A stretch of 64,000 nucleotides of DNA, taken from NCBI GenBank assembly GCA_001045525.1, contig LDWW01000004.1, forward strand, positions 1 to 64,000. The letters run 5' to 3'. Shown here piece by piece: positions 42,620-59,544 of the stretch; position 1 is the stretch's first letter, and each line of letters opens with the position of its first letter. A program made the translations under genes and the position numbers. Under the pieces are notes generated by a model, which searched no databases, was not told the DNA's origin, and saw only the letters and a program-made list of their open reading frames with translations. The stretch is from Chitinispirillum alkaliphilum. GTDB taxonomy: Bacteria > Fibrobacterota > Chitinivibrionia > Chitinivibrionales > Chitinispirillaceae.

Positions 42620-43471
42620 CTATTTAATCCACTGCTTATTGACATCGGGAATATCATCCAATAATTGTATGGTATGTCTGTTTTTTGGTCTGAGTGTAAC
42701 ATCATCGGGTGAACCCTGTTCCACAATTCTACCATCATGCATAATGAATAATCTGTCACTTACGTAATAAGCCAGTCCTATATCGTGAGTGACAAATACG
42801 ATTGTCATTTTTAGTTCTTCCTTGAGTTTCATCAGGTAATCAAGGATATTTGCGCGCACACATGCGTCAACCATACTGGTTGGTTCGTCGGCAATAAGCA
42901 CTTTGGGTTTCAGGGCAAATATTCTGGCCAGAAGCATACGCTGCATCTGTCCACCGGACAATTCAAAGGGGTATTTTCCTTCTATTTCCTTGGGCTTTAT
43001 GTTTACAGCCAAAAGAGCCTCATCAACCCTGTCCTCTTTTTCCGTATTGGAGATCTTTTCTTTAAAGATACCAAAAGAACTCTTAAGCTGTGAACGGATT
43101 GTAAAAAACTGGTTAAAGCAGCTGAATGGGTCCTGATATACAGCCTGTACTTCCCTCCAGTGTCTCTTAAGATCAGCGATCATTCTATTATTGTAAAGAA
43201 TTTTTCCTTTTGATGGCTTGATGAGGCCAAGCATTGTTTTTGCAAGAACACTCTTACCACAGCCAGATCCTCCCACTATCGAAACAATCTCCTCCTCTTT
43301 AATATCGAAAGAGAGATTTTTTATCGCAGTGATCTGTTTTTTCCCATGTCCGAATGTACAAGTGATATTGCTGCCAAGAAAAATATCGGCTTTACCTTTT
43401 TTAGTTTTCCCGGTCTCTTCGGCGGTAGCGGCCACAGTAGCAGAAGAGTTGACAATGTTATCATTGGGCAT
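42620..43471 (-). CDS. ABC importer ATPase, OppF-type
   Basis: This is the second nucleotide-binding subunit of a family-5 (oligopeptide/oligosaccharide type) importer. It has 283 residues with an unusual N-terminal lead of about 30 residues, Walker A GGSGCGKSV, the signature LSGGQMQRMLLARI and Walker B KVLIADEPTSMVD. The cysteine-bearing C-terminal oligo-HPY extension of many OppF proteins is missing; the protein ends shortly after the H-loop region (FVTHDIGLAYYVSD). It overlaps the OppD-like gene by 11 nt and is last in the operon. The gene symbol is left open because the substrate is unknown. Confidence 0.9.
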   Translation of the reverse strand: MPNDNIVNSSATVAATAEETGKTKKGKADIFLGSNITCTFGHGKKQITAIKNLSFDIKEEEIVSIVGGSGCGKSVLAKTMLGLIKPSKGKILYNNRMIADLKRHWREVQAVYQDPFSCFNQFFTIRSQLKSSFGIFKEKISNTEKEDRVDEALLAVNIKPKEIEGKYPFELSGGQMQRMLLARIFALKPKVLIADEPTSMVDACVRANILDYLMKLKEELKMTIVFVTHDIGLAYYVSDRLFIMHDGRIVEQGSPDDVTLRPKNRHTIQLLDDIPDVNKQWIK

Positions 43472-44432
43472 ATTGACACCTCACTTGTCTGTCTCCGACA
43501 ATTCGGATCTCTTGTTTGTTCTTTTTACAGTCATCTTTTGCGACAGGACACCTCTCAGCGAATCTGCACCCGCTGATTGGATTTGCCAGATTGGGCGGAG
43601 CACCTTCAATCACCGTGGGTTTTTGTTCCTTCTGTCCTGGTTCAGCACTCAGCGTTGAACTCATCAAAGCCTTGGTGTAAGGATGCCTTCCATCGAAAAC
43701 GATCTGTTCCGTTGTCCCGAGTTCAACAATCTCACCTGCATACATGATTGCGATCCTGTGAGCGACATGACGAAGCAGAGGAAGTTCATGAGTGATAAAC
43801 ATCATGGTAGAGAAGATCTTTTTATCCAACAGATCAAAGATCATTTTTATTATTCTCTTCTGAGTAGAGACATCGAGTGCAGATGTAGGTTCATCAGCGA
43901 TAACCATCTTTGGGTTAAGAAGAGTTGAGATGCCGATAACGCACCTCTGCCTCTCTCCTGCTGTTATCTGTATAGGAAAAGAGTTAAGAATGCGTTTAGT
44001 ATCGAGGCCAATAAGTTCAAACCTTTCAAATACTTTATCATGCAACTCTTTTTTACTTCCCTTAATTCCATGACTCTGAAGAAGATCGAAGGCCAGATTT
44101 CTAATTTTACGTGTAGGGTTAAGCGCATTGAATGCACCCTGAGGGATCATGGCAACCTTTTTAGCAAGAACATTCTGCCGCACATCATCAGGAGTTCTGT
44201 TCATCAAAGACTCCCCTCCTACCAGCACATCACCCGATGTGGGATAAAGAGGAGGGATAAAAAGTCCCATACATCCACTTACAAGAGTGGTTTTTCCGCA
44301 GCCTGATTCTCCTGCAATACCTAATATCTCTCCCTCTTCCATTGAAAAGGAAACCCCTGAAACGGCGTGAATTTTTTTGCCGAATCTGGTTAGATAGTGA
44401 AGATGCAGGTCTTTAACTTCAAATACCGACAT
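43461..44432 (-). CDS. ABC importer ATPase, OppD-type
   Basis: This is the first ATPase subunit of the importer, 323 residues. It has Walker A (GESGCGKTT), the Q-loop VAMIPQGAFNALNPTRKI, a signature written ITAGERQRCVIGI rather than the classical LSGGQ, and Walker B (KMVIADEPTSALD). The C-terminal oligo-HPY region is present, with the Cys motif GCRFAERCPVAKDDCKK that in relatives holds an iron-sulfur cluster. The degenerate ABC signature (TAGE) is notable because the partner has a normal one; asymmetric sites are common in this transporter class. An AGGAG box precedes the ATG. Confidence 0.92.
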   Translation of the reverse strand: MSVFEVKDLHLHYLTRFGKKIHAVSGVSFSMEEGEILGIAGESGCGKTTLVSGCMGLFIPPLYPTSGDVLVGGESLMNRTPDDVRQNVLAKKVAMIPQGAFNALNPTRKIRNLAFDLLQSHGIKGSKKELHDKVFERFELIGLDTKRILNSFPIQITAGERQRCVIGISTLLNPKMVIADEPTSALDVSTQKRIIKMIFDLLDKKIFSTMMFITHELPLLRHVAHRIAIMYAGEIVELGTTEQIVFDGRHPYTKALMSSTLSAEPGQKEQKPTVIEGAPPNLANPISGCRFAERCPVAKDDCKKNKQEIRIVGDRQVRCQYAQ

Positions 44433-44440
44433 ATTGGCTC

Positions 44441-45280
44441 CTATTTACGAAGGCGGGGGTTGAAAACACCTTCCATCGAAGTGTTTAATGTGTATAGTGC
44501 GAAAACGATTACAGTTATAAGAACTGCTGCTGGCATAAATGCCCACCACGCACCATCAAGCAAAGCATTGTTTGAATTTGCTTCATTTAAGATTATCCCT
44601 AAGGAAGTCCCATCAACTGGACCCAAACCTATCATACTGATACTTGCTTCCATTAGTATACCGGTTGCAAGCTGAATAATAAACACCATAAAAACATATG
44701 AGAGCAGATATGGTAAGATGTGAACCATCAGGATTTTAAATGTGCCTGCTCCGTTGATTCTGGCCAAAGCTATATGGTCCCTGCTTTTAAGACTTGCAGA
44801 CTGAGCTCTGACCGATCTGGCCGTCCAGGTCCAGGCTGTTAATCCAATAATAATAGCGATCAGATTGAGTGATCTGCCATCTTCAAGAGCAGAACTAATA
44901 AGAAGCAGCACAACAAAAATCGGTATCACTAAAAACAGATTTGTAATCATGTTTATTAAATCATCGATCCATCCGCCGGTAAACCCTGCGTAAACCCCCA
45001 GAAGTGTACCTAAGGTGGTGGCAATGATACCAGCAAGAAATCCCACATAAAGAGAAGATCCCAGACCAGAAATGAGCATAGGCAGGACACTTCGGCCAAG
45101 GTGGTCGGTTCCCAGTAATGCTTCTGAAGAAGGAGGATTGTACATTCCTCCAACGGTATCATTTATAGCAACTGCATCAATGACCAAATTTCCGATAACG
45201 GCAACGAGTATGGTCAGAAGAAACAGACCCGCTCCGAAAACAAATGCTGGTTGTTTAAGTAAATTGCGCAACAGTTTCAT
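44441..45280 (-). CDS. ABC importer permease, OppC/DppC-type
   Basis: This inner-membrane permease has 279 residues with about six transmembrane helices. The start MKLLRNLLKQPAFVFGAGLF is followed by LLGTDHLGRSVLPMLISGL, the usual DppC-type motif, and the EAA-like loop VRAQSASLKSRDHIALARI. It follows the partner permease by 3 nt and precedes the first ATPase gene by 8 nt. All five genes are tightly packed and surely co-transcribed. Confidence 0.92.
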   Translation of the reverse strand: MKLLRNLLKQPAFVFGAGLFLLTILVAVIGNLVIDAVAINDTVGGMYNPPSSEALLGTDHLGRSVLPMLISGLGSSLYVGFLAGIIATTLGTLLGVYAGFTGGWIDDLINMITNLFLVIPIFVVLLLISSALEDGRSLNLIAIIIGLTAWTWTARSVRAQSASLKSRDHIALARINGAGTFKILMVHILPYLLSYVFMVFIIQLATGILMEASISMIGLGPVDGTSLGIILNEANSNNALLDGAWWAFMPAAVLITVIVFALYTLNTSMEGVFNPRLRK

Positions 45281-45283
45281 AGT

Positions 45284-46363
45284 TTATGCCCCTGTTCGTC
45301 CCGCTTTGACGCGAGGATCGAAAAAACCGATTAATATATCAACAGTGAAGTTTGCAATCAGAACAGTAGTTGCCACAAGAAGAGCTCCACCCTGAATAAC
45401 GAAAAAATCATTATTCTGCACAGCCTCAAGCAGTGTTGTACCAAGTCCCGGATAGGAGAAAATCATCTCTGTAATGAGTGCACCACCAATCATAACACCA
45501 AGATTCAGAGCAAGTCCTGCCAGCTGAGGCAGCATTGCATTTCTGAATATATACATCATGATTTTGCTCTCTTTTATTCCAAGTGATTTGGCATATTTTA
45601 CATAATCTGTACCAAGCTCATATATACCCATAGAACGCATTCCAATGGCCTGTCCCCCTACAAGAACCGGAAAAATAGACATAAAGGGAAGTATATAATG
45701 ATAAGCAGCACTTCTTATGAAAGGCCAGTTGAATCCGGGAGTTACCGCCCAGGCATATCCCCCATAAGCAGGGAAGAAATTGAAAACTACAGCAAGCACA
45801 AAAACCAGAAGCATACCAAACACAAAAAACGGTGTTGAGGTAGTGAACAGAGAGAGGGGGAAAAACACTTTGTCGAAAATCCCTCTTTTGTACGCAGCCA
45901 GAGCTCCCAACATGTTCCCAAGAAACCACCCTATCACTATGGTTGGAAACTGAAGGGCAAGTGTCCAGACAATAGATTCTCTTAATATTTCACTAACAGC
46001 TCTGGCCTGACTGATCGAGGTACCTAAATCACCCCTAAACACCATCCCTAAATAGTTGATGTATTGTTCAAACAGGGATTTTCTTACAGGCCTTCCGAAT
46101 CTCTCACCTTCCCTTGGCTCCTCACGCACCACATTGCCAAGCAGATCAACCTCGACCATCCCAAAATCTTTGAGCAAGTTAGCTTCTCTGTTTGCCACGT
46201 CTTCCGGAGATAGTCCACGAGTTGTCTGACTCAATATTATTTCAAATGGATCCTGTCCCAGGCGGGGCAGGAGAAACGTAATTGAGACAGCTACAAAGAA
46301 GGTAAGTAAATACCAAAATCCTCTTTGAAGGATATATTTGATAGTAGGAAATTTGTTTAGCAT
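45284..46363 (-). CDS. ABC importer permease, OppB/DppB-type with a long periplasmic insert
   Basis: This permease has 359 residues, longer than the roughly 310 of OppB. The extra length sits after the first helix (about residues 35-95, including GLSPEDVANREANLLKDF and VREEPREGERFGRPVRK). The loop MRSMGIYELGTDYVKYAKSL then SLGIKESK is the cytoplasmic EAA-like coupling motif. I recall similar long inserts from family-5 importers of oligosaccharides in thermophiles, which would support a sugar rather than a peptide substrate, but this is inference. A GAGGAG box precedes the ATG, which lies 9 nt after the stop of the binding-protein gene. Confidence 0.9.
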   Translation of the reverse strand: MLNKFPTIKYILQRGFWYLLTFFVAVSITFLLPRLGQDPFEIILSQTTRGLSPEDVANREANLLKDFGMVEVDLLGNVVREEPREGERFGRPVRKSLFEQYINYLGMVFRGDLGTSISQARAVSEILRESIVWTLALQFPTIVIGWFLGNMLGALAAYKRGIFDKVFFPLSLFTTSTPFFVFGMLLVFVLAVVFNFFPAYGGYAWAVTPGFNWPFIRSAAYHYILPFMSIFPVLVGGQAIGMRSMGIYELGTDYVKYAKSLGIKESKIMMYIFRNAMLPQLAGLALNLGVMIGGALITEMIFSYPGLGTTLLEAVQNNDFFVIQGGALLVATTVLIANFTVDILIGFFDPRVKAGRTGA

Positions 46364-46372
46364 CTACTCTCC

Positions 46373-48166
46373 TCAGTTAATTGATTGCAATTCCCAAAGC
46401 ATATCTCTGGCAGCACCAACCGTAGGAGTCTGCGGCGGAGCGTATGGATTTTCGTTTGAAGGAAAATTTTCCCAGTTTGATATGCTAAACTGATAATACT
46501 GTTCGGGGCGATAGACAAGTGTAAGCGCTGGCAAGTCATTCATGTAATGTCTGTTGAGCGCTCTGTAAGCTTCTTTTACTTCCTCTTCATCTGTTAAAAT
46601 CGGTATTAGCTGAATAAGGCTGTCCACAGCTGAGTTGTAATCCTCGGAGTTTGGATTATTATATCTCCCGTAGTTTTCATTCATTCTGGTTCCGATAGGT
46701 GCCCAGTCCCTTGAGGACATAACCGCTTCAAAACGTGCCAGAGGATGAGCCGGAGTAAGATCAGCTGCTGGTGTATGCATCACCATATCGAAATCTCCAT
46801 TGGGCTGAGAAGTCCAGTACGTTGAAGCGTCGATAAACCTTTCACGCACATCGATTCCAACTGCCCTCATATCTCTGACCACCAGCCTCACAATCGCTTC
46901 CCAGTCAGACCACCCGGCTGGCGACATGATCTCTACTGTAGGCACACGCTCTCCATCGGCATTTAGCATGTAACTGAGCCTTCCCCTGCTGTCGATTACA
47001 GAAGAATACCCTGCATCCTTAAGTATCTGACGAGCCTTATCGGGATCAAACAGACGTCCATATTTCTGAGCATCTTCGGCACAATAATAACGCCCCTCAT
47101 TTCCAAAAGGCAAAATCAAACCTGGTTGAAGATCTTCACTGTAGCCTGAAACCGCCAGTTCAGCAATATCAGCATAATTGATCGCATGAGCCATGGCTCT
47201 CCTGATATTTACATCCGATAGCGGCTCCTTTGTTACATTTAGTACGATCGTAGGAATAGAACCAGCCACATAGTATGGCTCCTCAGGATACCAGGTACGA
47301 ACACCGTGACGCTCCCTGATCCAGATCCTTGGAATATATGTAGATGTCACATCCATTGTCCCCTGCTGCAAAGCAAGAGCGAAATGTGAATTCCCCTTCA
47401 GAATAGGATGAATAATGTATTTTGGGTTAGGTTTTCTTCCATCATACAATGCATCTATACCCCAGTAATCATCACGACGCCTAAGCACAATTCTCTCATT
47501 TGTAAAATTGTCAAGAGTATATGGCCCGGAAACAACCGGATCATCACTCATTCTTTCACCCTGCAAGGCTGAAATATCGCCATCCAGCTCCTCCAATCGG
47601 GCCTGGATTACATGCTTGGGCACAATCCATACAGACTGCATCATACTCAACACAGCCAAAGGACTAAGCCTTTTGGCATCAGTCATTACAAATTTTACCA
47701 GTTCAAAAGAATCACCCTCTTCCTCTATAGTCTCAACCTTTATGTCGGATATATAATCCCAAACGTAAGATGTTGGCAGACCGGCATTTTCCTGACTCAG
47801 ACCAAATGTAAAAACAACATCTTCAGCGGTTAGCGGCTCTCCGTCACTCCATCTTGCAGCAGGATTCATAATCACAGAGATATGTTCATTTGTCCGCTCA
47901 TGCAGTGTGGCAAGAAGGGGTTCAAGCTCCCCGGTGAGGATATTATACTTAAGCAAATGTTCATACATGATGTTATTGTTTCCACCAGACAGGATAGGAA
48001 ACGCAGACCACCACGCAAGAGGATTAAATGTACAGGGGCTCCCCCATTGGGCTCCTCCCACATAAAGTGTCTCATCCCTTTGGTACAAACTGGTTTCTCC
48101 ACAAGAATTGAGACTGCAAACTATGGCGATAAAAACCAATAACTTAGCCAGTCCTTTCCCCTTCAT
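46373..48166 (-). CDS. Family-5 extracellular solute-binding lipoprotein
   Basis: The substrate-binding component of the importer has 597 residues. A lipoprotein signal ends at Cys22 (IAIVCSLNSC), anchoring it to a membrane. The SBP_bac_5 fold shows in TFNPLAWWSAFPILSGG near the start, MYEHLLKYNILTGELEPLLA, ARWSDGEPLTAEDVVFTFGL, DVNIRRAMAHAINYADIAEL and LTLVYRPEQYYQFS near the end. The NPLAWW...YEHLLKYNILTGEL pattern reads like cello- or beta-oligosaccharide binding members rather than classical OppA, though substrate specificity cannot be fixed by eye. A GGGGAG box precedes the ATG. It is first in the importer operon. Confidence 0.9.
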   Translation of the reverse strand: MKGKGLAKLLVFIAIVCSLNSCGETSLYQRDETLYVGGAQWGSPCTFNPLAWWSAFPILSGGNNNIMYEHLLKYNILTGELEPLLATLHERTNEHISVIMNPAARWSDGEPLTAEDVVFTFGLSQENAGLPTSYVWDYISDIKVETIEEEGDSFELVKFVMTDAKRLSPLAVLSMMQSVWIVPKHVIQARLEELDGDISALQGERMSDDPVVSGPYTLDNFTNERIVLRRRDDYWGIDALYDGRKPNPKYIIHPILKGNSHFALALQQGTMDVTSTYIPRIWIRERHGVRTWYPEEPYYVAGSIPTIVLNVTKEPLSDVNIRRAMAHAINYADIAELAVSGYSEDLQPGLILPFGNEGRYYCAEDAQKYGRLFDPDKARQILKDAGYSSVIDSRGRLSYMLNADGERVPTVEIMSPAGWSDWEAIVRLVVRDMRAVGIDVRERFIDASTYWTSQPNGDFDMVMHTPAADLTPAHPLARFEAVMSSRDWAPIGTRMNENYGRYNNPNSEDYNSAVDSLIQLIPILTDEEEVKEAYRALNRHYMNDLPALTLVYRPEQYYQFSISNWENFPSNENPYAPPQTPTVGAARDMLWELQSIN

Positions 48167-48445: not shown

Positions 48446-49849
48446 ATGGGTGTAAAAAAACTACTTCACAGTCAATTTCTGTCTATGGTTTTTATAATAA
48501 TATCAATTTGTTTGAGTTTCGCAAACGCCCACAACCCAGACCCCTCAGACAACAACCTCATATTCACCGCCAATGAGTGGAGAGCCTCAACTGACCCCTA
48601 TGGATCATCACACCAATATACCGGATCAGATCTAAAGACAGATGGAGTTGTCGGGGTAACTTTCATTATGGCTCCACGGGGAGAACATTGGCCATATGTG
48701 GAACTAATCTGTGATGTAGGAAGTAATATACCCGGTACCCGTTCTATAGAGATTGAATATCGCTCAACACACCCTCTGATAACGAAGCTAAGACAATCTG
48801 ACCTTACCTCCCTGGGCAACGCTCATTATGAATACACTATGCCCAAGTCTGAAAGCTGGAAATCCACAACTGTAGACATTTCCCTGTTCGAGCAGCCTCC
48901 GTGGGCCTCGAAGGAAGCCTCTGCTGTTGACCTCAATCTTGAAAAAGTATATCATCTGCATCTTGTTCCCCGGCTAAATACCACAGATGGGGACACCGGG
49001 ACAATTGAGATTCGAAAGCTCGTTCTTCATGGCCACGAGCCCGATGAACCGGAGCAGATAGACACAACCGGTGCAAGCAGGAATATGCTTTTTTATTCAG
49101 AAGGATGGAGAGTTCAGGTGGACAGAGTTGGTTCCGCTTATGATTTCAATCAGATTCTCGAGGACAGTACTGCAAATGTCACTTTCTATATCGCACAGCG
49201 AGAACAGGGTGGCTCCAGACCCTACGGAGACCTTATTTGCCAGATTGGCAGAAACCTTGAAGGCGTACGCGGAATGCAGATAACCTATAAATGTCAAAAA
49301 CCCCTCGAGATTGTGCTGATTCAAACTGATTTTGGTTACTCGGGTGACCAATCCTACGCATATTACAGAACCACCCTGCCCTCGGCCTCAGACTGGAGCA
49401 CACGACAGATAAACATCTCCAGGTTCAAACAACCAAACTGGGCAAGCCCAACTGCATCTCAGACCCCGCTAAAACTTGAAAACGTGTCTGAAATTGCATT
49501 TTCACCGGAAGTAAACGTCACTGCCGGAGATACTGTCACACTCGAAGTGAAGAGCCTGATACTTTTCGGCTACGAAAATACTGGCGTAATTACCCCCCGA
49601 CACTCCAATGTTTATGAAACAATAAGAACACATTACAACAACACCATTTCCATACGCGCAGAAAATAACAACCCTGTAAATCTGCAACTTTACTCTTTAG
49701 ACGGCAAAATTATAATGTATAGAAGATTCAGCCCAACACCGGAAGGTTATATACATGTTCCACTGACAGGCATTCCAGCAGGAACGTACCTGTACCAGAC
49801 AAAATCGGGTAAAGATTCCCGTAGAGGGAAGTTTGTGATTACACCTTAA
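48446..49849 (+). CDS. Secreted protein with two copies of an unrecognised beta-rich domain and a C-terminal sorting-like tail
   Basis: The product has 467 residues from the ATG at 48446, which has AAGGAG 7 nt upstream. A signal peptide (about 1-28, ending ISICLSFANA) precedes two homologous domains, about 38-205 and 222-385. Each reads: a W-R-A/V opening with a small D-x-x-G-S-x turn, a V-T-F-I/Y-x-A strand, a Y-x-[ED]-L-I-C block, a Q-[ST]-D turn, a W-x-[ST] then I-x-I/L-x-x-F/L-x-Q-P-x-W-A-S segment, and a final strand L-x-L-x-G. About residues 395-467 form a tail with VNLQLYSLDGKIIMYRRF and GIPAGTYLYQTKSGK, resembling type IX-type C-terminal sorting domains. Carbohydrate binding is possible but unproven. 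Confidence 0.75.
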   Translation: MGVKKLLHSQFLSMVFIIISICLSFANAHNPDPSDNNLIFTANEWRASTDPYGSSHQYTGSDLKTDGVVGVTFIMAPRGEHWPYVELICDVGSNIPGTRSIEIEYRSTHPLITKLRQSDLTSLGNAHYEYTMPKSESWKSTTVDISLFEQPPWASKEASAVDLNLEKVYHLHLVPRLNTTDGDTGTIEIRKLVLHGHEPDEPEQIDTTGASRNMLFYSEGWRVQVDRVGSAYDFNQILEDSTANVTFYIAQREQGGSRPYGDLICQIGRNLEGVRGMQITYKCQKPLEIVLIQTDFGYSGDQSYAYYRTTLPSASDWSTRQINISRFKQPNWASPTASQTPLKLENVSEIAFSPEVNVTAGDTVTLEVKSLILFGYENTGVITPRHSNVYETIRTHYNNTISIRAENNNPVNLQLYSLDGKIIMYRRFSPTPEGYIHVPLTGIPAGTYLYQTKSGKDSRRGKFVITP

Positions 49850-49990
49850 CCAGAAGTCTTTTCCGATCTGTTTGCAAGCACAATTTGCCACATTTCCTAA
49901 GAGACTATCACTTTTCTGTGCAATTGAGCTGTAAAAAACATAAATTATCCTAAAGGTTATTATTTCCACTACTTGAAAGGGGTTATTTTC

Positions 49991-50590
49991 ATGTCCATTT
50001 TAAGAAATATTGCATTTGCTACCATATTCAGTGCAATTTCATTTGGTCCAACATTCGCCGCAGAGATCGCAAATCCAGAGAGTGCAAGCGACAATCTTAT
50101 CCGGACTGCTCTATGGAGAGCCACTACAGATGATCTTGGTTCATCCTTCCAAACAGGTGAAGAACTCATTGAGGAAGGTATAGCTAAAGTAACATTTACC
50201 ATCGCGGTCAAGGAGGAAGAGGACGAGTGGCCCTATGTTGAGCTGATCTGTGAAACCGGAATGGATCTTTCAGAAGTTCAGGGCATGGAAATTGTATATC
50301 GCTGCACCAGCCCGCTTATCATCAAACTGTCCCAATCAGATTTCGGCTATGAAGGTAATCAAACATACTCTCACTACGAATACACCGCACCTGCTTCAGA
50401 AGAGTGGAATACTGTTCAGATAAGCATTTCTGATTTTACACAGCCAGACTGGGCACCTGAAGACTCAAGAGCAATCCCCCTCAAGATGGAAAATGTACCC
50501 GACATCTATCTGGTACCTGCACTTGATTACACAACCGGAGAATCCGGAACAGTGGAAGTTAAAAGCCTGTTGCTTTACGGAGCAAAATAA
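49991..50590 (+). CDS. Secreted single-domain paralogue of the preceding protein
   Basis: The product has 199 residues; the start at 49991 follows AAAGGGG, and an upstream in-frame ATG has no such signal. A signal peptide (ends FGPTFAAE) is followed by one copy of the same domain as in the gene before: ALWRATTDDLGSSFQTGEEL, AKVTFTIAV, WPYVELICETG, IIKLSQSDFGYEGNQTYSHY, VQISISDFTQPDWAPED and VEVKSLLLYG. It lacks the C-terminal sorting-like tail, so it may stay periplasmic or be freely secreted. The 141-nt gap between the genes has no clear terminator, so co-transcription is possible. No named family was recognised. Confidence 0.75.
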   Translation: MSILRNIAFATIFSAISFGPTFAAEIANPESASDNLIRTALWRATTDDLGSSFQTGEELIEEGIAKVTFTIAVKEEEDEWPYVELICETGMDLSEVQGMEIVYRCTSPLIIKLSQSDFGYEGNQTYSHYEYTAPASEEWNTVQISISDFTQPDWAPEDSRAIPLKMENVPDIYLVPALDYTTGESGTVEVKSLLLYGAK

Positions 50591-50623: not shown

Positions 50624-50667
50624 AGGCCGGCAGAGCAGGGATCACCCCCAAATCACTCTGCCGGCCT
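50624..50667. terminator. Convergent terminator with a 12-bp GC-rich stem
   Basis: AGGCCGGCAGAG (50624-50635) pairs perfectly with CTCTGCCGGCCT (50656-50667) around a 20-nt loop, followed by ATCTTTT on the plus strand. The right arm overlaps the last codons of the convergent phosphatase gene. It ends the secreted-protein transcript and may work in both directions. Confidence 0.85.
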
Positions 50668-53211
50668 ATCTTTTCTGCGGATTGCCAGCATGGTAATATC
50701 ATCGTAGGGCACCGCATTGGAACCATGTTCTTCAAGTGCATCCCTGACAAGTTCGATGATTTGCTGTGAGGAATCAAAGCGCCTGCAGAGCAAATCTGAC
50801 AGTTTTTCCCTTGTAAAAAACTCCCCGTCAGTATTCCTTGCTTCGGTTACACCATCAGTATACAGCAAAACAGTTTCACCCGGTTTAAGGGTGAATCTCT
50901 CCTGTATAAATTCCAATCCCTCACCTATCCCTACAGCGGGCCCTGTTGGCTCAAGCCACTTTCTGACTCTTCCATCATTACTGAGCAGGGCTGCAGGATT
51001 ATGACCTGCATTAATATAGGTAAGCTCCCCGGTGCAGGGATCAACCAGCGCAAAAAACATGGTCGCATACATCAGACGGCTTTTTCTGCTGCGGTGATGA
51101 CTTATAATGTAGCGGTTCGCAAACTGAACAGCATAAAGAGGGTCAACAGATTTCTCCAGGGATTGCTCTGTGAATGCTCTTACCAATGTCCGTATGAGTG
51201 ACATAAACAATGCCGCGCCCACGTCCTTACCGGAGACATCGGCAATGATGTAGGCAACTCTGCCATCCTCAAGTGTGAAAGCATCGTAAAAATCCCCCGA
51301 GACCTCACGGGCAGGAAGAAAAAGCGCATTGGATTCCCACCCCTGATGAACCGGCAGGGTTTCGGGAAGAAAGCTTGACTGTATTTTTCTTCCAAGTTCA
51401 AGCTCCCGCTTTATGGCCTCAAGATATTTACGCTCCTGTTCCCGTAGTATGTTGAGCTGTTTATTTGTCTTCTCCAGTGCAATAGCCTGATCCTGTACTT
51501 TCTGCATGAGAAGAGCACCCTGAATCGCGCCACTTAGATGCTGACTGAGCAGATTGTACACATACGTCTTACACTTACCGGGCTTAAACAATATAAACCC
51601 AAGCTGTTCCTCTTTAAAATAGAGCGGTAAAACGATGAGCTGCCAATTGAGTTGAAGTGTTTCCACCCCTCCGGGAATAAGATCTTTGCTTTCAAACACA
51701 GCATCCCCGGGAAGTCGGTCTCTCTTTCCGTTCTTAAGATTGAGAATAAGCCTCGAGGTTTTATAATCCCCACTATCCGGTTGATATAATGATAAAAAGA
51801 TATCCTCTATACCTAAAGATGCAACCACCCGCTCAATGGTATCCAATAAAGAAGGTATATTGAATGAGTTTGCAATGGAGATTCCGACCGTGCGCAACAG
51901 CGCGGCCTGCTGCTCTTCAACAAGCCTTTTGTGCGCCTGAACACGAACAGTAGCTGCAGAAAAGAGACTGTACCCATCATGAAGCAACTTATCAGCAAGG
52001 TCCTGCGCCGGAAAAGGTATACCTGCAGCATAGTGGCTGATAAGGGTCAAAATCTTCTGCCATTGAAGAATATCCTCCCCGGAGAGAACAATACCTTTTA
52101 TCATCCAGTTTAACCAGGGCAGAAATACACTTTTCTGCCTGCCTTCAAGTTCATCAAAAAAAAGTTCCCCGAGCCTGATAACCTCCTCTTCAGTGACACT
52201 TCCGCTTATCTCTTCTTTTGATTCCCTTACAGCTTTGCAAAATGCCTCACACCGCTCTTTATAACTCTCCCACCCATCTTTTTTTGTGGCATCCCCGGAC
52301 ACATTTTCCACAGATGTGCTCAGTGCATGCTGAGGATTAATAAAACACCCGCAGGACTGTCTGATTACCGGCACCGCGTTAAGAACAGTTCTCATTGGAA
52401 CCTCTCTGCCCTTCATCATGGCAATAAGGATGCTCACTGCAGTACTTCCAATCTCGTAAAAAGGCTGCCGGACGGTTGTGAGTGGCGGGGTAGTCAGTTC
52501 GCTCTCCTCAATACCATCAAAACCTGACACCGCAACATCCTCTGGTATACTGAGCCCCTGTTCTCTGAGTGCTTTTATGGCACCTATCGCAGTTTCATCA
52601 TCAGCGGCAATTATCGCATCAAAGGAAAGGCCAATATCAAGAAACTCCTTTGTGGCGAGATACCCTCCTTCCCTGGAGTAGTTGCCATATTTTATTCTCT
52701 CATCCCCATATTCCAACCCATACTTTTTCATAAATTTCCTGAAACCGGCCAGCCTCTGATCAGCATCGATGTTTCCCTCTGTGCCTCCGATGAAAACATA
52801 TTTTCTGAATCCGTGTACATCATGGAAATGGGATAGAATACTGCGAACACCAGATTCGTTATCCAGAATAACAGAAGGTATGTCATCGATTGCGGGAGTA
52901 AGGGTAACGATGGGAATGTCTCTGAATTGGTGCAGAAATTCCAAGAAAACTTCATCAGAGATGTAATCCCGGATAGTCCCGGACATGATCAGCCCATCGA
53001 TTTTTGAGATATCCACATGCTGGTATATCAAATTTACCTGATGTTCATAGGGATTTTCCGGCGATACAGAAAGACTCCCCCCTTCGTAGCACACCAGATT
53101 ATATCCATTTTGTCTGACTGAATCAGAGATACCTGGCCAGATGCGTGAATAGTATGACTCCGCCAACCCTTCAAGGAACAGGCAGATAGTCTTTTGTGAA
53201 TCTCGGTTCAT
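50653..53211 (-). CDS. LacI-type sugar-binding domain fused to GAF and SpoIIE-type PP2C phosphatase
   Basis: This cytoplasmic regulator has 852 residues, no signal peptide and no membrane helix. Residues about 8-290 are a periplasmic-binding-protein fold of the LacI/GalR effector type (KTICLFLEGLAESYYSRIWP, VDISKIDGLIMSGTI, AADDETAIGAIKALREQGLS then IPEDVAVSGFDG, TTVRQPFYEIGSTA), but the DNA-binding helix-turn-helix is absent. About 300-425 is helical linker, about 425-580 a GAF domain, then coiled coil, and about 620-852 the PP2C phosphatase (VSGDFYDAF, IIADVSGKDVGAALFMS, NAGHNPAALL, LLYTDGVTEARN). The metal-binding Asp residues appear intact. I infer that a sugar controls phosphatase activity, probably on a STAS-type anti-sigma antagonist, none of which is in the window. 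A GGAGA box sets the start. Confidence 0.9.
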   Translation of the reverse strand: MNRDSQKTICLFLEGLAESYYSRIWPGISDSVRQNGYNLVCYEGGSLSVSPENPYEHQVNLIYQHVDISKIDGLIMSGTIRDYISDEVFLEFLHQFRDIPIVTLTPAIDDIPSVILDNESGVRSILSHFHDVHGFRKYVFIGGTEGNIDADQRLAGFRKFMKKYGLEYGDERIKYGNYSREGGYLATKEFLDIGLSFDAIIAADDETAIGAIKALREQGLSIPEDVAVSGFDGIEESELTTPPLTTVRQPFYEIGSTAVSILIAMMKGREVPMRTVLNAVPVIRQSCGCFINPQHALSTSVENVSGDATKKDGWESYKERCEAFCKAVRESKEEISGSVTEEEVIRLGELFFDELEGRQKSVFLPWLNWMIKGIVLSGEDILQWQKILTLISHYAAGIPFPAQDLADKLLHDGYSLFSAATVRVQAHKRLVEEQQAALLRTVGISIANSFNIPSLLDTIERVVASLGIEDIFLSLYQPDSGDYKTSRLILNLKNGKRDRLPGDAVFESKDLIPGGVETLQLNWQLIVLPLYFKEEQLGFILFKPGKCKTYVYNLLSQHLSGAIQGALLMQKVQDQAIALEKTNKQLNILREQERKYLEAIKRELELGRKIQSSFLPETLPVHQGWESNALFLPAREVSGDFYDAFTLEDGRVAYIIADVSGKDVGAALFMSLIRTLVRAFTEQSLEKSVDPLYAVQFANRYIISHHRSRKSRLMYATMFFALVDPCTGELTYINAGHNPAALLSNDGRVRKWLEPTGPAVGIGEGLEFIQERFTLKPGETVLLYTDGVTEARNTDGEFFTREKLSDLLCRRFDSSQQIIELVRDALEEHGSNAVPYDDITMLAIRRKDRPAE

Positions 53212-53784
53212 TTTTTCTCCGGGAACAAGTCTGTTTTGCTGACAGGAAGTAAAACGTTTAAAACCTCAGGGTTATTGTGGTTAAGAATAAGGGTGTTCCG
53301 ACAGCAGTATACCATTACATATTAGATAATAAACGATATTTATTGTAAGAAGGTTACCGTTTTTTTTAATTATTATAAACAGGTGTAAAATATAGATTTA
53401 GAACAGGGAGATCAGAAAAATAGTTATGTCTGATATGGAAAAAAAATGTCCAAAGTGGTTTGAGGCGAATATATATATTATACTTTTATAAGCGATTAAA
53501 CGCTTTTATACTGAATAAGCATTTTAGTAAGAATATTTGAGATGTACTATCTTATCAAAATTGAGTCATTATCTTATCTAAATCAGGTTCTCTCAAAGGT
53601 ATTTCTGGTTTTTTGTAGAAATACACATATATTTAGAACAAACGATTCCAAACAAAAAATTTTCACCGTGATGAATCAGAGAGGAGGGTAGAAGCTGCAT
53701 TAAAACTACTTTTCTTAAGGTAATTAAACTGAAGCGGAAAAACTAAACCATAAAACATGAACGGTTTTTAATATGGAGGTCCGT
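53212..53784. promoter_or_regulatory. Long divergent control region ahead of the porin-like operon
   Basis: About 570 bp without an ORF separate the phosphatase gene from the outer-membrane operon. It is AT-rich. At 53483-53510 CTTTTATA occurs twice in direct orientation 20 bp apart, and between them AAGCG and CGCTT form a short inverted repeat around 53490-53505. This is a candidate operator or activator site. No RNA gene was seen. Confidence 0.45.
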
Positions 53785-56220
53785 TTGATTAAACATTTTC
53801 ATCGCTTAACAGGCATAAAATCTGTTGCGATTGCACTGGGAACCGCAGTATTGTTCTCTGCCTCCGCGCAGAACCAATACGACTCAGAGCGAATCGACTC
53901 ACTTGAAAGATCAATGGAGAGGCTGGAGCCCAAAGTGCTTTCCACGCTCATGTCCCGTGCATCCAGCCCCATACAGTTCAGCGGGGAACTGCGGTCAATA
54001 ATGCAATTCCACAATTTCACCGTCACCCCCGATTTCCTTGAGCAGGACAGAAGTTACCTTGCATCCAACTGGGGAAGCAGTGACAATCTCATTCGGCTTA
54101 CAATGCAGGTGAACCCCAATCGCCACACAGAACTATACTCTACACTTGCCTTCAATCACTCCCTTACGGGAAATAGCTTTGGGCAAAGAAGCGGAGATGG
54201 GTTCCGTCCAGCGCATTCAGGAGCGATTCAGGGTCTCGACCTTTACGAAGGTCTAAACGCAGGCATGAATGTGAGCACACCGTGGGCAAACTTTGAACTG
54301 GAAATGGGTGCCGTCCACTGGACAGAGGCTTCACCACTGACGATCTGGAAAATCCCATCCCGCCCGTCAGCATGGGACTGGCTCATTTATGAGCAAGAGA
54401 TGCCGATCTCCAGATACTATGAATACACAATGGCAACCGGGCAGGGTGAAGGGCGTACTGCCTGGAACAAAAAGGCATTCAGCGGAATCAATTTCAGCAG
54501 CAATAACCTTCCGGGGAATTTTGATTTCAATTTTGTTTATGGAGCATTTGAATCATTTGACAACATTGAACCTGAGAAACTGGATCTGACAGGTGCCCTC
54601 GGCTATTCAGGGGATTTCCCGGAAGAGACAAAAGGTAAAGGTATAGGGGACAGCTACAGAAGAGTACTCCACACCCGCTTGGCAGCACAGAGACTGGTTG
54701 GTGATTTTACTCCCGCTTTTAACTTCTACAGACTTCGCGTCAGGGATGATATTATCCACGCCTATACTCACTATGAAGATCCTGAATGGGGAGGCGATCC
54801 GGCCAATGTGTTAAAAAGCCATTTTGGCGTTGGCCAGTCAAAACGAGACGGATCAGTTATAGACAGAGGTTTTTACAAAGAAACCAACGTTTTTTCCGTT
54901 GATGTGAGACGCCAGAGAGGCGATAATATCGATATCCATATGGATTTGGGCCTGAGTATGGTCGATACAAACTGGATGATTTTTGACGTTGAGGGTGATG
55001 GAGAATTCTCAAAGAAGGAAGTAAGCTCTTCATCTCCGGGTTTTGCATTGTATGCGATGATAGACAATGACAGATTTCTTCCACTTGTTGCTGAGCTGAT
55101 CTTTGTAACTGAAGACTTCTACTCACCACACTCATTTGCAAACCCGATCGATGGATTTTTTCCGTTCGGAGCAAATTTTGCAGATCCCGGTAAATTTATT
55201 TCTGACGGATACGCACGCAACATGGCTGGTGCACAGCTTACATATGCACCGGAACTGCGTGGATTTGGTCATCTGAGATTTAAGTACGGCCAGCATTTCC
55301 AGCTCCAGCCCGGACGAGATCTTATCTATTTTCCCTACAGACTCAACGGTAGAGATTTCAACTCAATCAACAGAACTTCCTATAATCTGTATGGGGACGG
55401 ACTGCTTGATTTCTCTTTGAGTAACAACTACACCAGCCGCCTTGGAGACCAGAGTTTTCAGGAAATGTCTTACAGCAAAAATAACGGAGAGGGAGCGTTA
55501 CATCCTGCCGGACCTTTTGCCGGTGGTATCAGAGCCGATTACCTCTCTGCTTTTGAAGCATTTGCCGCTTACGATAATGAGCTGCAGGCAAGAGCCAATA
55601 ATCATGACCACAACCAAAGGGAATATCTCTGCCTTGAAGAAGAGGTTACGGTAACAATTCCTGTATTCGCAGAAGATGGAAGTGTTACAGGAGATGACAC
55701 CACACTGACAAGTTCTTCAAGCTTTATTCCAGTAAACCGAAAATTCACTTTCAATTTTGAAACTGAATTTGGTTACGATATCAGCCAGATTGTTGGTTAC
55801 AACAATGCACTCTATATCAACGGCCATGCTGCGATTAACGGTGTATCTCGCTCATTCATGCCCCTGGCTTTCAGCGATGAGGCAGAGGATATGCTGCTTT
55901 GGGGACTTTATCTGAGATTTGAACCAGCTATTGCACTGAGAGACAATTTCTACGTGGTTGGTATTGCAGGCTATGAAAACTGGCGTTCTCAGAAAGCATG
56001 GATGGAATTGGGAGGCAGGGCAATACAGGTTCCCATCAACAAAACAGATATTGCTTTCGGTGCTGGTTTTGACTGGGATATTGTGCCAAGAGTTGGTCTG
56101 CACTGCCGCTTCAAATGGATGAGGCACACAGACAAACTCACCGATGAGGCAAAAATTCTCCACTCAAGCAATTCATGGCAGACTCCGATCTTAACTGCAG
56201 AGGTAAAAGCATGGTTCTAA
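53785..56220 (+). CDS. Large porin-like outer-membrane protein with an EF-hand-like loop
   Basis: The product has 811 residues. I choose the TTG at 53785, because a perfect GGAGGT lies 5 nt upstream; an ATG at 53773 overlaps that box. A signal peptide (ends VLFSASAQ) is followed by a short coiled coil (RIDSLERSMERLEPKVLSTL), then FSGELRSIMQFHNF and hundreds of residues of alternating, aromatic-rich beta-strand sequence that ends in Trp-Phe, as outer-membrane barrels do. Residues 401-412 (DVEGDGEFSKKE) match a calcium-binding EF-hand loop. The coiled coil plus barrel layout resembles trimeric porins. Specificity is unknown; context suggests oligosaccharides. Confidence 0.75.
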   Translation: MIKHFHRLTGIKSVAIALGTAVLFSASAQNQYDSERIDSLERSMERLEPKVLSTLMSRASSPIQFSGELRSIMQFHNFTVTPDFLEQDRSYLASNWGSSDNLIRLTMQVNPNRHTELYSTLAFNHSLTGNSFGQRSGDGFRPAHSGAIQGLDLYEGLNAGMNVSTPWANFELEMGAVHWTEASPLTIWKIPSRPSAWDWLIYEQEMPISRYYEYTMATGQGEGRTAWNKKAFSGINFSSNNLPGNFDFNFVYGAFESFDNIEPEKLDLTGALGYSGDFPEETKGKGIGDSYRRVLHTRLAAQRLVGDFTPAFNFYRLRVRDDIIHAYTHYEDPEWGGDPANVLKSHFGVGQSKRDGSVIDRGFYKETNVFSVDVRRQRGDNIDIHMDLGLSMVDTNWMIFDVEGDGEFSKKEVSSSSPGFALYAMIDNDRFLPLVAELIFVTEDFYSPHSFANPIDGFFPFGANFADPGKFISDGYARNMAGAQLTYAPELRGFGHLRFKYGQHFQLQPGRDLIYFPYRLNGRDFNSINRTSYNLYGDGLLDFSLSNNYTSRLGDQSFQEMSYSKNNGEGALHPAGPFAGGIRADYLSAFEAFAAYDNELQARANNHDHNQREYLCLEEEVTVTIPVFAEDGSVTGDDTTLTSSSSFIPVNRKFTFNFETEFGYDISQIVGYNNALYINGHAAINGVSRSFMPLAFSDEAEDMLLWGLYLRFEPAIALRDNFYVVGIAGYENWRSQKAWMELGGRAIQVPINKTDIAFGAGFDWDIVPRVGLHCRFKWMRHTDKLTDEAKILHSSNSWQTPILTAEVKAWF

Positions 56221-56282
56221 AAAACAACATCAGAAAAAAACTATACAAATATCATAAACCCGGGAAAGAAAGGCTTAACATT

Positions 56283-58193
56283 ATGAGAAAATCTCTCATT
56301 ACCGCTCTGGCCCTCTGTTTGAGTGCAAACACATGGGCAGCGAACGATGATCTTACCGCACGCGTGGACGAGCTTGAAAGCGGGTTCAATCAGATCCTGT
56401 CTAAAGCTGGAATCCACTTCGGCGGAGAATTCCGCTCCCAAATGCTTGGCTCAAGAGCAGGTGGGGATATTTTTTCTGAAAACAAAAAATCCCATGAATC
56501 AGTGGAATTTACCTCCGTTGACATTGATATCAATGCAAGACCAAACGAAGCTTTTGGTGCAAGAGCAATGTTTCGCATGCATTATGACTGGAGAAACCTC
56601 TTCACCGGTTTCTACAACCCGCTCTATACCCGTTGGCTTAGCCTCGATGGTACCATAAGCGACATATACAACTACAGCCTCGGTGATTACAGCAAAAGAA
56701 TAAGCCCCCTCACCGTGTGGAACCCGGAAATTGAGATTATGTTTGAGCCGGAAATATTCGCCAGACAGCGCAGAACCGCTATGGGTGAAAAATTCCTCAG
56801 CAACAACAACAGAATCCTTCAGGGTGGGGATCTCACCATGGATGCGGCTCTCAGACCAATTGTCGATCAGTTCCATTTCAGTCTATACGGGGCACGTCTG
56901 CGTTCTTCCGGAACCGGCGACGAACCCGGTGGTGTGCTTCCGGAAGGAACAGTTGCTGATATGGATGCATTTTTCGTAGGTACCAATCTGGATTTAGAGG
57001 TTATGCCCGGTGCAAGAGCAGCCCTGACTTACCAGAGAATTTTTGACAATGAATACAGCTATAACGGAGACCTTGACCCTCAGATCACACCTGTACAGGA
57101 TACACGGCTTCTTTCAGGAAGACTGATGCTTGACAACAACCTGTTCATGCCAACCGATCTGATAAACATAGGTCTGGATGCTGAAATGGCACTCTCTTTT
57201 GATGAAAGATATGACGAGACTGTCAATGGTTTAGCATTCAACAGTGATATTTTCGCCAGATACAATATCGATAACGCCAACAGAGTCAGACTCACCGCCG
57301 GGTTCATGCATAATGACCGGTACTTCCGTAATGAGCTTGCCCAGAGTCCAAGCTATATCGGCGGTGACCGTATCATGAATACTGAAAATGACGGTACCAC
57401 ACCCGATGGCATCTCTGTACACAATGTGTTTGACAGAATGTACAGAAACGTATTTCGTTTTGCTCCCTCAGGCCAGGCGACCGGATGGTCCCGTGCACCA
57501 CAGCAGAAACTTGCCTACACAAATGCAACCCTTTCAATGGATGATTCACGGGTTGATGGTTTTATCGATGAGAGATTGCAGCTTGTACTTCCTTTCGGAC
57601 TTGCAACTCCAAACCGTTCAGGGCTGACTGCATCTGTCGATGGCTCACTTCTTAACCGCGGCATTCAGATTGGAGCAAATCTCTATGCGCTTAAAGAAGC
57701 CAACCATCTGCCAGCTATCGACAATGAAGGTAACGCTATTGATATGCCTCTTGCAGATTTCTTCCAGATCGGTTTCGGTGCACGCACTGACCTCTCCAGA
57801 ATGGTTGATTTTTTAAGCAACTCACTTGTCCTGAGCTTCTCGGGTGAAATGTCCAGCTACTCAAGAGAAGGTATCAGAAACTACTCGGCTCAAAACCGTG
57901 ACAATATGCTTATGAGCATGGGAGGTGAGTGGAATTTCTACAGAAGATACTCTGTACTTGGAGGATTCCAGTATCTTTCCTCTGAATATGACTACTCTGC
58001 TCATGGGAATATGACCGAATTACATTCTCAGCTTTCATTCGGTCTGAGCTATGGCATAAATGAAGGCTCTGCAGTTTACCTGCTGTTTTCAAGACTCTCA
58101 ACTGAGTATGAATACACATCAGCAAACAATGTTTACCAGAATCCTAAAGCTACAATGACTCAGCCAGAACTTTTCCTTACAGTTACATTCTAA
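56283..58193 (+). CDS. Second porin-like outer-membrane protein
   Basis: The product has 636 residues from the ATG at 56283, where the signal peptide begins (MRKSLITALALCLSANTWA); a GAAAGG box lies about 10 nt upstream. As in the first porin-like protein, a short coiled coil (LTARVDELESGFNQILSKAG) precedes IHFGGEFRSQMLGSR and then a long beta-strand-rich region ending ELFLTVTF with a terminal Phe, the usual barrel signature. The two proteins share architecture but little sequence apart from the F-x-G-E-x-R-S start of the barrel. It lies 62 nt after the first and 19 nt before the lipoprotein gene, so one operon is clear. Confidence 0.75.
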   Translation: MRKSLITALALCLSANTWAANDDLTARVDELESGFNQILSKAGIHFGGEFRSQMLGSRAGGDIFSENKKSHESVEFTSVDIDINARPNEAFGARAMFRMHYDWRNLFTGFYNPLYTRWLSLDGTISDIYNYSLGDYSKRISPLTVWNPEIEIMFEPEIFARQRRTAMGEKFLSNNNRILQGGDLTMDAALRPIVDQFHFSLYGARLRSSGTGDEPGGVLPEGTVADMDAFFVGTNLDLEVMPGARAALTYQRIFDNEYSYNGDLDPQITPVQDTRLLSGRLMLDNNLFMPTDLINIGLDAEMALSFDERYDETVNGLAFNSDIFARYNIDNANRVRLTAGFMHNDRYFRNELAQSPSYIGGDRIMNTENDGTTPDGISVHNVFDRMYRNVFRFAPSGQATGWSRAPQQKLAYTNATLSMDDSRVDGFIDERLQLVLPFGLATPNRSGLTASVDGSLLNRGIQIGANLYALKEANHLPAIDNEGNAIDMPLADFFQIGFGARTDLSRMVDFLSNSLVLSFSGEMSSYSREGIRNYSAQNRDNMLMSMGGEWNFYRRYSVLGGFQYLSSEYDYSAHGNMTELHSQLSFGLSYGINEGSAVYLLFSRLSTEYEYTSANNVYQNPKATMTQPELFLTVTF

Positions 58194-58212: not shown

Positions 58213-59544
58213 ATGAACAAAATTTTGACTTATTCAGTAACTTTAGTCGCATCCGCACTCATAGCAGGGTGCGGAGTTCAGCTTCAGTCTGTTTCATCCG
58301 GAGCAGCCGAAGGCAGCAGTACCCGTGAAACCAGTGAATCCGCCGCTTCTGCTCAGAGCAACGTTGTATACCGTTTTTTCGATGACGACTATGTAGCCGG
58401 CGGATACTCATACGCCTATCCTGAGGGTCAGTCAAATGCGTGGATTACTGAAGATCAGTTTAAACTGGGTGAAGTATCAGTTCAGATGGACCTTGTGCCT
58501 ACAGACTGGTCCGGTGGAGCCATCTGTCTGTGGAACATGTCATACAACCTGACACCCTACTACGAAACCGGTGCACTTCAGTTCTGGATCAAGGGTAAAA
58601 ATGGTGGTGAAGTGTTTAACATCCAGCTCCTTGATGCAGAAAGCCCAACTGGAAACAACACCGCAGTAGCTGTTCCATCTACAAATTATGGCGAGCTCGC
58701 CACCGAATGGCAACAGTTCACAATACCTCTGAGAGATTTCGGCCCCCGCGGCTCATACTGGGACGCAAGAAAAGGTGTAGAAGTGAATGAAGCATTCAAG
58801 TGGGATGAGGTCATGGGCTTCCGTATCACTATCGACCAAAACGCAAACCGCGAATTCACTATCTGGGTTGATGACATCAACATCGTAAGCAATGCAGTGG
58901 AAGCCGTCGCACAGGAAGAATCAACTACACCGGAATTCTGGGATGAGATTGAAGAAACCCTCCCTGTTATTCCTGTTGAATCAAAGCCTGCTGTTAATGT
59001 GCTTGCTGAGATTATTCCAGGCGATGTACCTGCCGGTGGCTGGGCTTATGAATATGGTGGAATGTCAGCATACGCTGTTCAGAATACAGAAGATTACAAA
59101 TCTGTTTTTGCCAGCTACCTTGACAACAGCGACTTCTCTGGGGTTACCGTTTCACTGGGAATGGGAACAAATCTTGATCTCACTGAAGCACGTTCAATTG
59201 AGAACAGTGCCATTGCTTTCTGGGGTAAGGCTGCCGAAGGCTTAAGAAACGTGCATTTTGGTATCGGTGATGATGAATCAAACGGACAGAAAGTAATGAC
59301 AAGGGTTAACCTTGCAAATTACGGTATCAGTTCTGAATGGACTTACTTTGTCATTCCATTGAGTGATTTTCCTGAAACAGGAACCTATTGGGATGCTGAC
59401 AATGGAGTGGAAGTACCGGCTGATATGGATTGGGAAAATATGAACGAGTTCAGATTTTCTGTGAATGTAGGCGAAAACCGTATGCCAAGCGGAGATCCTG
59501 CTTCTTTTTACATTCACGACATGGCTGTAATCACGTTAGACTAA
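58213..59544 (+). CDS. Lipoprotein with two carbohydrate-binding-like domains
   Basis: The product has 443 residues. A canonical lipobox (ALIAGC, Cys20) is followed by a Ser/Thr/Ala/Glu-rich linker, then two repeats of a jelly-roll domain, about 48-228 and 262-443. Each has a G-G-x-[SA]-[YW] block (GGYSYAYPEG; GGWAYEYGGM), a W-x-[QY]-F-x-I-P-L-x-D-F block (EWQQFTIPLRDFG; EWTYFVIPLSDFP), a [GS]-[ST]-Y-W-D-A block (GSYWDARKGVEV; GTYWDADNGVEVP) and a closing F-R-[IF]-[TS] strand. The WxxFxIPLxDF pattern is typical of CBM11/CIA30-like carbohydrate-binding folds. It closes the porin-like operon and probably presents or collects a polysaccharide at the cell surface; that role is inference. Confidence 0.78.
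   Translation: MNKILTYSVTLVASALIAGCGVQLQSVSSGAAEGSSTRETSESAASAQSNVVYRFFDDDYVAGGYSYAYPEGQSNAWITEDQFKLGEVSVQMDLVPTDWSGGAICLWNMSYNLTPYYETGALQFWIKGKNGGEVFNIQLLDAESPTGNNTAVAVPSTNYGELATEWQQFTIPLRDFGPRGSYWDARKGVEVNEAFKWDEVMGFRITIDQNANREFTIWVDDINIVSNAVEAVAQEESTTPEFWDEIEETLPVIPVESKPAVNVLAEIIPGDVPAGGWAYEYGGMSAYAVQNTEDYKSVFASYLDNSDFSGVTVSLGMGTNLDLTEARSIENSAIAFWGKAAEGLRNVHFGIGDDESNGQKVMTRVNLANYGISSEWTYFVIPLSDFPETGTYWDADNGVEVPADMDWENMNEFRFSVNVGENRMPSGDPASFYIHDMAVITLD

Follow-up and report, generated by a model that had tools for sequence, protein, structure and literature searches.

Two adjoining genes and their modules

What might two adjoining genes do whose products share one beta-rich module and both begin with a signal-peptide-like N-terminus? 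We met this question in a stretch of 64,000 nucleotides from the soda-lake bacterium Chitinispirillum alkaliphilum (contig LDWW01000004.1, positions 1 to 64,000; hereafter, the window), in which open reading frames place the two genes on the same strand at 48446-49849 and 49991-50590. Their features are as follows.

48446..49849, + strand: gene 1, 467 aa; signal peptide, two modules, short linker and T9SS-type C-terminal tail
48545..49039, + strand: module copy 1, gene 1 aa 34-198 (hmmsearch)
49073..49576, + strand: module copy 2, gene 1 aa 210-377 (hmmsearch; Pfam CIA30 over aa 290-353)
49637..49840, + strand: T9SS type A sorting tail of gene 1 (TIGR04183; NCBIfam)
49991..50590, + strand: gene 2, 199 aa; signal peptide and one module, without a tail
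50084..50587, + strand: module copy 3, gene 2 aa 32-199 (hmmsearch; predicted structure)

An earlier note, made from the sequence alone, had proposed that one domain occurs twice in the first protein and once in the second, and this was borne out. The module is about 165 residues long, the three copies in the window are 38-48% identical (62/163, 79/163 and 70/155; copy 1 and the gene 2 copy, 47%), and their pairwise local scores are 298-379, whereas 500 shuffles never exceeded 53. Among the sequence blocks that the note had listed as shared, Q-P-x-W-A is exact in all three copies, but the others were slightly idealised, the middle copy reading W-R-V, Y-G-D-L-I-C and Q-T-D. The note had also assigned a sorting-like tail to the first protein only, and here it was right: the gene 1 tail scored 29.3 bits with TIGR04183 (cut-off, 23), whereas the NCBIfam scan gave no match to this model in the gene 2 protein. 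The genome encodes an SprA-like T9SS translocon protein (446.9 bits in total; threshold, 200) and about 44 proteins with T9SS-type tails, and secreted deacetylases with Por tails have been described in Chitinispirillum alkaliphilum (PMC4814513). With a tail over the cut-off and a translocon in the genome, the gene 1 product is a predicted cargo of the type IX secretion system.

Pfam and NCBIfam scans detected no catalytic domain in the gene 1 product. Its full-length model is of low confidence (pLDDT 64), and we took from it the layout only: a helix near the N-terminus (3-24), then the two beta modules, a linker that is disordered (379-398) and, at the C-terminus, a domain of six strands (400-465).

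Predicted fold and kinship to CBM11

From which family might the module have come? First, AlphaFold2 with 23 family members predicted the gene 2 module to be a jelly roll (pLDDT 93.7, pTM 0.89). Second, in a Foldseek comparison of this model with the PDB, CBM11 entries were the best matches (6r31, 1v0a, 2lro and 6r3m; TM 0.63-0.68; E 4e-7 to 1e-6 for 1v0a, 6r31 and 6r3m) and accounted for four of the top five; NDUFAF1/CIA30 (7zkq and 7zkp) also matched at a TM of 0.60, followed by CBM61, CBM29, SGBP-B and CBM4. Third, a family profile from alignment A1 retrieved 1v0a from the PDB by hmmsearch (E 1.3e-4), and hhalign of 43 family copies with 20 CBM11 copies of the same order gave a probability of 96.5% and a score of 61.3, compared with at most 19.1 in 40 column-shuffled controls. 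We relied on the A1 search and on hhalign because alignment A2, whose profile gave 2.7e-8 for CBM11 and was set aside, contains sequences that themselves resemble CBM11. CBM11 was reached by profiles only; phmmer found no match to gene 1 in the PDB, and neither window protein matched Pfam CBM_11 (PF03425) at E<=10.

Judged by profile comparison, the module is homologous to CBM11, and its predicted structure places it, as a divergent member, in the jelly-roll superfamily of CBM11 and CIA30 (galactose-binding-like). With the CBM11 of Clostridium thermocellum Lic26A-Cel5E (PDB 1v0a/6r31; PF03425) it has in common the jelly-roll fold, a size of about 170 aa, a remote but significant profile similarity and a place as an accessory part of exported glycoside hydrolases, whereas the identity in structural alignment is about 16-17%. 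The guess in the earlier note of a jelly-roll binding module thus anticipated the predicted CBM11/CIA30-type beta-sandwich, which accompanies the carbohydrate-active domains of exported enzymes.

Two other claims of that note held in part. The domain was said to be unrecognised; copy 2 of gene 1, however, scores 26.1 bits with Pfam CIA30 (PF08547; gathering score, 24), over positions 84-144 only of the 157 in the profile, but the gene 2 protein remains below this score (15.3 bits) and no CBM model, CBM30 (PF21582) included, matched either window protein in the Pfam scan. CIA30 is the sole Pfam domain family over threshold for the module in these proteins. The superfamily is already known, and none of the Pfam and NCBIfam models that we scanned is specific to the lineage of the module. 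The note had also likened the domain to a lipoprotein encoded farther along the window:

58213..59544, + strand: lipoprotein with two CBM30/CBM11-type modules (Pfam CBM30, 84.2 bits; CBM_11, 35.6 bits)

Both this lipoprotein and the window pair are non-catalytic and fall within one broad superfamily. The direct link between them is weak, hhalign giving a probability of 3.7% (from a shallow profile of two rows), and the likeness is not a close one; unlike the window proteins, the lipoprotein is a clear member of Pfam CBM30.

Ligand site and CIA30

The residues of the CtCBM11 ligand cleft, which we take to be Y22, Y53, D99, R126, D128, Y129, D146 and Y152, were compared with those of the module. 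In the alignment with 1v0a, the module lacks five residues at the place of R126-D128-Y129 in CtCBM11, Y152 corresponds to a conserved Pro, the calcium-type Asp of CBM11 is missing, and the C-terminal VDNI motif is replaced by I-E-I-[RK], its Asp being mostly Arg or Lys; Y22 falls outside the alignment and is not mappable. The module has conserved positions of its own (gene 2 numbering): W42, D47-x-x-G50-S51, aromatics at 80 and 82, Y103, Q115, an invariant aromatic at 129 and Q151-P152-x-W154. Because the R126-D128-Y129 loop is deleted and Y152 has become Pro, the predicted ligand site of the module differs from that of CBM11, though the fold is common to both.

The fold of CIA30/NDUFAF1 (PDB 7zkp and 7zkq) is also the same as that of the module. 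The CIA30 branch of the fold has a role in protein assembly, not in sugar binding. Most module copies, however, lie below the CIA30 threshold, and the module is secreted, modular and fused to hydrolases. Our search of the literature on CIA30 and carbohydrate binding yielded nothing on bacterial modules. A role of the module proteins in the assembly of complex I is unlikely, because they carry secretion signals and the available part of the genome description reports respiration genes to be absent in Chitinispirillum alkaliphilum (PMC4814513).

Bacteroides SGBP-B (PDB 7kwc/7kwb), one of the fold matches, is likewise a non-catalytic surface protein of beta-sandwich modules, but it has a lipid anchor where gene 1 has a T9SS tail. 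No SusC/SusD partner was seen beside genes 1 and 2.

The stand-alone clade

A tree built from 43 module copies unites the copy of protein 2 and the two of protein 1 with five proteins of other genomes that have one module each (support 95/90), and this grouping has a single origin in 96% of bootstrap trees. A profile of the clade gives its members 228-275 bits and everything else at most 115, one member that is cut by a contig end scoring 107. Clade members occur in 6 of the 168 genomes of the phylum, with one per genome outside the present one; some are secreted and others, such as that of L078, are lipoprotein-like. Because the branch of protein 2 is short and those of the protein 1 copies are long, protein 1 probably descends from a duplicated gene of the protein 2 type and gained a T9SS tail.

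We sought conserved gene neighbours of the stand-alone relatives in other genomes and found none apart from tyrS near two of them. In these two genomes, which belong to different families, the stand-alone module gene has a gene resembling that of tyrosyl-tRNA synthetase at a distance of no more than about 3 kb (tyrS-module gene loci L078 4526-5803 and L080 7692-8597); this proximity is possibly remnant synteny.

Might the stand-alone forms be CIA30-like factors that bind or assemble proteins in the periplasm or outer membrane, for example by holding exported enzymes together, and that bind no sugar? No domain family other than CIA30 exceeds its threshold, NDUFAF1 is the second-best fold match, and single-copy lipoprotein or secreted forms persist in several families that share no locus for them; all of this would agree with such a role. 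The missing ligand residues of CBM11 and the assembly function of the CIA30 branch likewise argue against glycan binding. Nevertheless, the closest structures are those of CBM11, by sequence profile and by fold, and sister copies are exported and fused to carbohydrate-active enzymes; we therefore regard this alternative as unlikely.

Spread through the genome and the phylum

Searches by tblastn and with profiles revealed at least 22 module copies in 16 proteins of the genome, at least 14 of these proteins lying beyond the window pair. The module is carried by four of the five GH8 enzymes, a gene count that agrees with the five reported for strain ACht6-1 (PMC4814513). It is also present on a GH5 cellulase, an M28 peptidase, two proteins with an HExGH M6-like motif, and polysaccharide deacetylase-like proteins, of which two are above the Pfam threshold, one is below it and one (L142) was judged by eye from its sequence. 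Large non-catalytic carriers occur as well, that of L032 having four copies, and in related genomes the module is found on GH9, GH18 and S8 proteins. It was absent from both GH18 chitinase genes that turned up in the present genome. No relatives were found in the plasmids or phages searched, nor in two scans of a wider set of genome contigs with single proteins as queries. The M6-like metalloprotease genes at L030 4109-7429 and L033 4271-7600, which lie on separate contigs, are near-identical, have two modules each and look like a recent duplication.

The module usually directly precedes the C-terminal tail, and its carriers have unrelated activities, proteases included. Both observations would suit a module that binds the envelope polysaccharide of the cell itself and so retains T9SS cargo at the surface, rather than binding substrate. 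However, in L031, L036, L091 and the gene 2 type the module is N-terminal or a tail is missing, and most of the 44 T9SS-tail proteins of the genome have no module; this explanation appears to us improbable, even more so than an assembly role.

Other genes of the window

The pair is preceded by a divergent operon:

42620..48166, - strand: oligopeptide/oligosaccharide-type ABC transporter (Pfam SBP_bac_5, two permeases and two ATPases)

On the other side, a gene at 50653-53211 (- strand) encodes a LacI-type periplasmic-binding domain fused to a SpoIIE/PP2C phosphatase, which may be a sugar-sensing regulator; it sits between gene 2 and two outer-membrane-like proteins followed by the CBM30-type lipoprotein. 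The two large proteins (53773-58193, + strand), directly upstream of this lipoprotein, have no clear Pfam family and one weak OmpA_membrane match, and are possibly outer-membrane barrels.

What the modules may bind

We infer, and consider it probable, that the window genes encode exported non-catalytic proteins that bind glycans through their modules of the CBM11/CIA30 superfamily. In this model, the module has multiplied in Chitinispirillum and its relatives as an accessory part of exported enzymes, probably one that binds glycans. By way of the type IX secretion system, the gene 1 product would bring its two modules to the cell surface, and that of gene 2 would be a single-module protein that is secreted or kept in the periplasm. 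The most likely ligand of both would be a beta-1,4-linked polysaccharide, and they would help to keep cells or enzymes on the insoluble substrate.

Which polysaccharide might this be? Strain ACht6-1 of Chitinispirillum alkaliphilum grows only on insoluble chitin, and its chitinolytic activity stays on the cells (PMC4814513). Because of this restricted growth, and because the module occurs on GH8 enzymes and polysaccharide deacetylases, our favoured guess is chitin or partly deacetylated chitin (chitosan). Against glycan binding stand, besides the points raised above on the CBM11 ligand residues and the CIA30 branch, the two GH18 genes of the genome, which have no module, the several carriers that are proteases, and the lack of conserved gene neighbours of the stand-alone relatives in other genomes.

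A more far-reaching proposal is that the module represents an undescribed CBM family with its own ligand site and is the chief means by which the chitin-degrading branch of the Fibrobacterota attaches to its substrate, the window genes being dedicated non-catalytic adhesins; we put this forward tentatively, as a possibility about which we are rather doubtful. According to the available part of the 2016 survey of Fibrobacteres attachment genes, C. alkaliphilus, a related specialist on chitin, has neither Fib_succ_major nor fibro-slime proteins, the adhesion families known from the phylum, and the module does not appear there by name (PMC4704652). Because more than 20 copies are on exported proteins and stand-alone secreted forms exist, the module is a direct candidate for the attachment of Chitinispirillum and its relatives to chitin.
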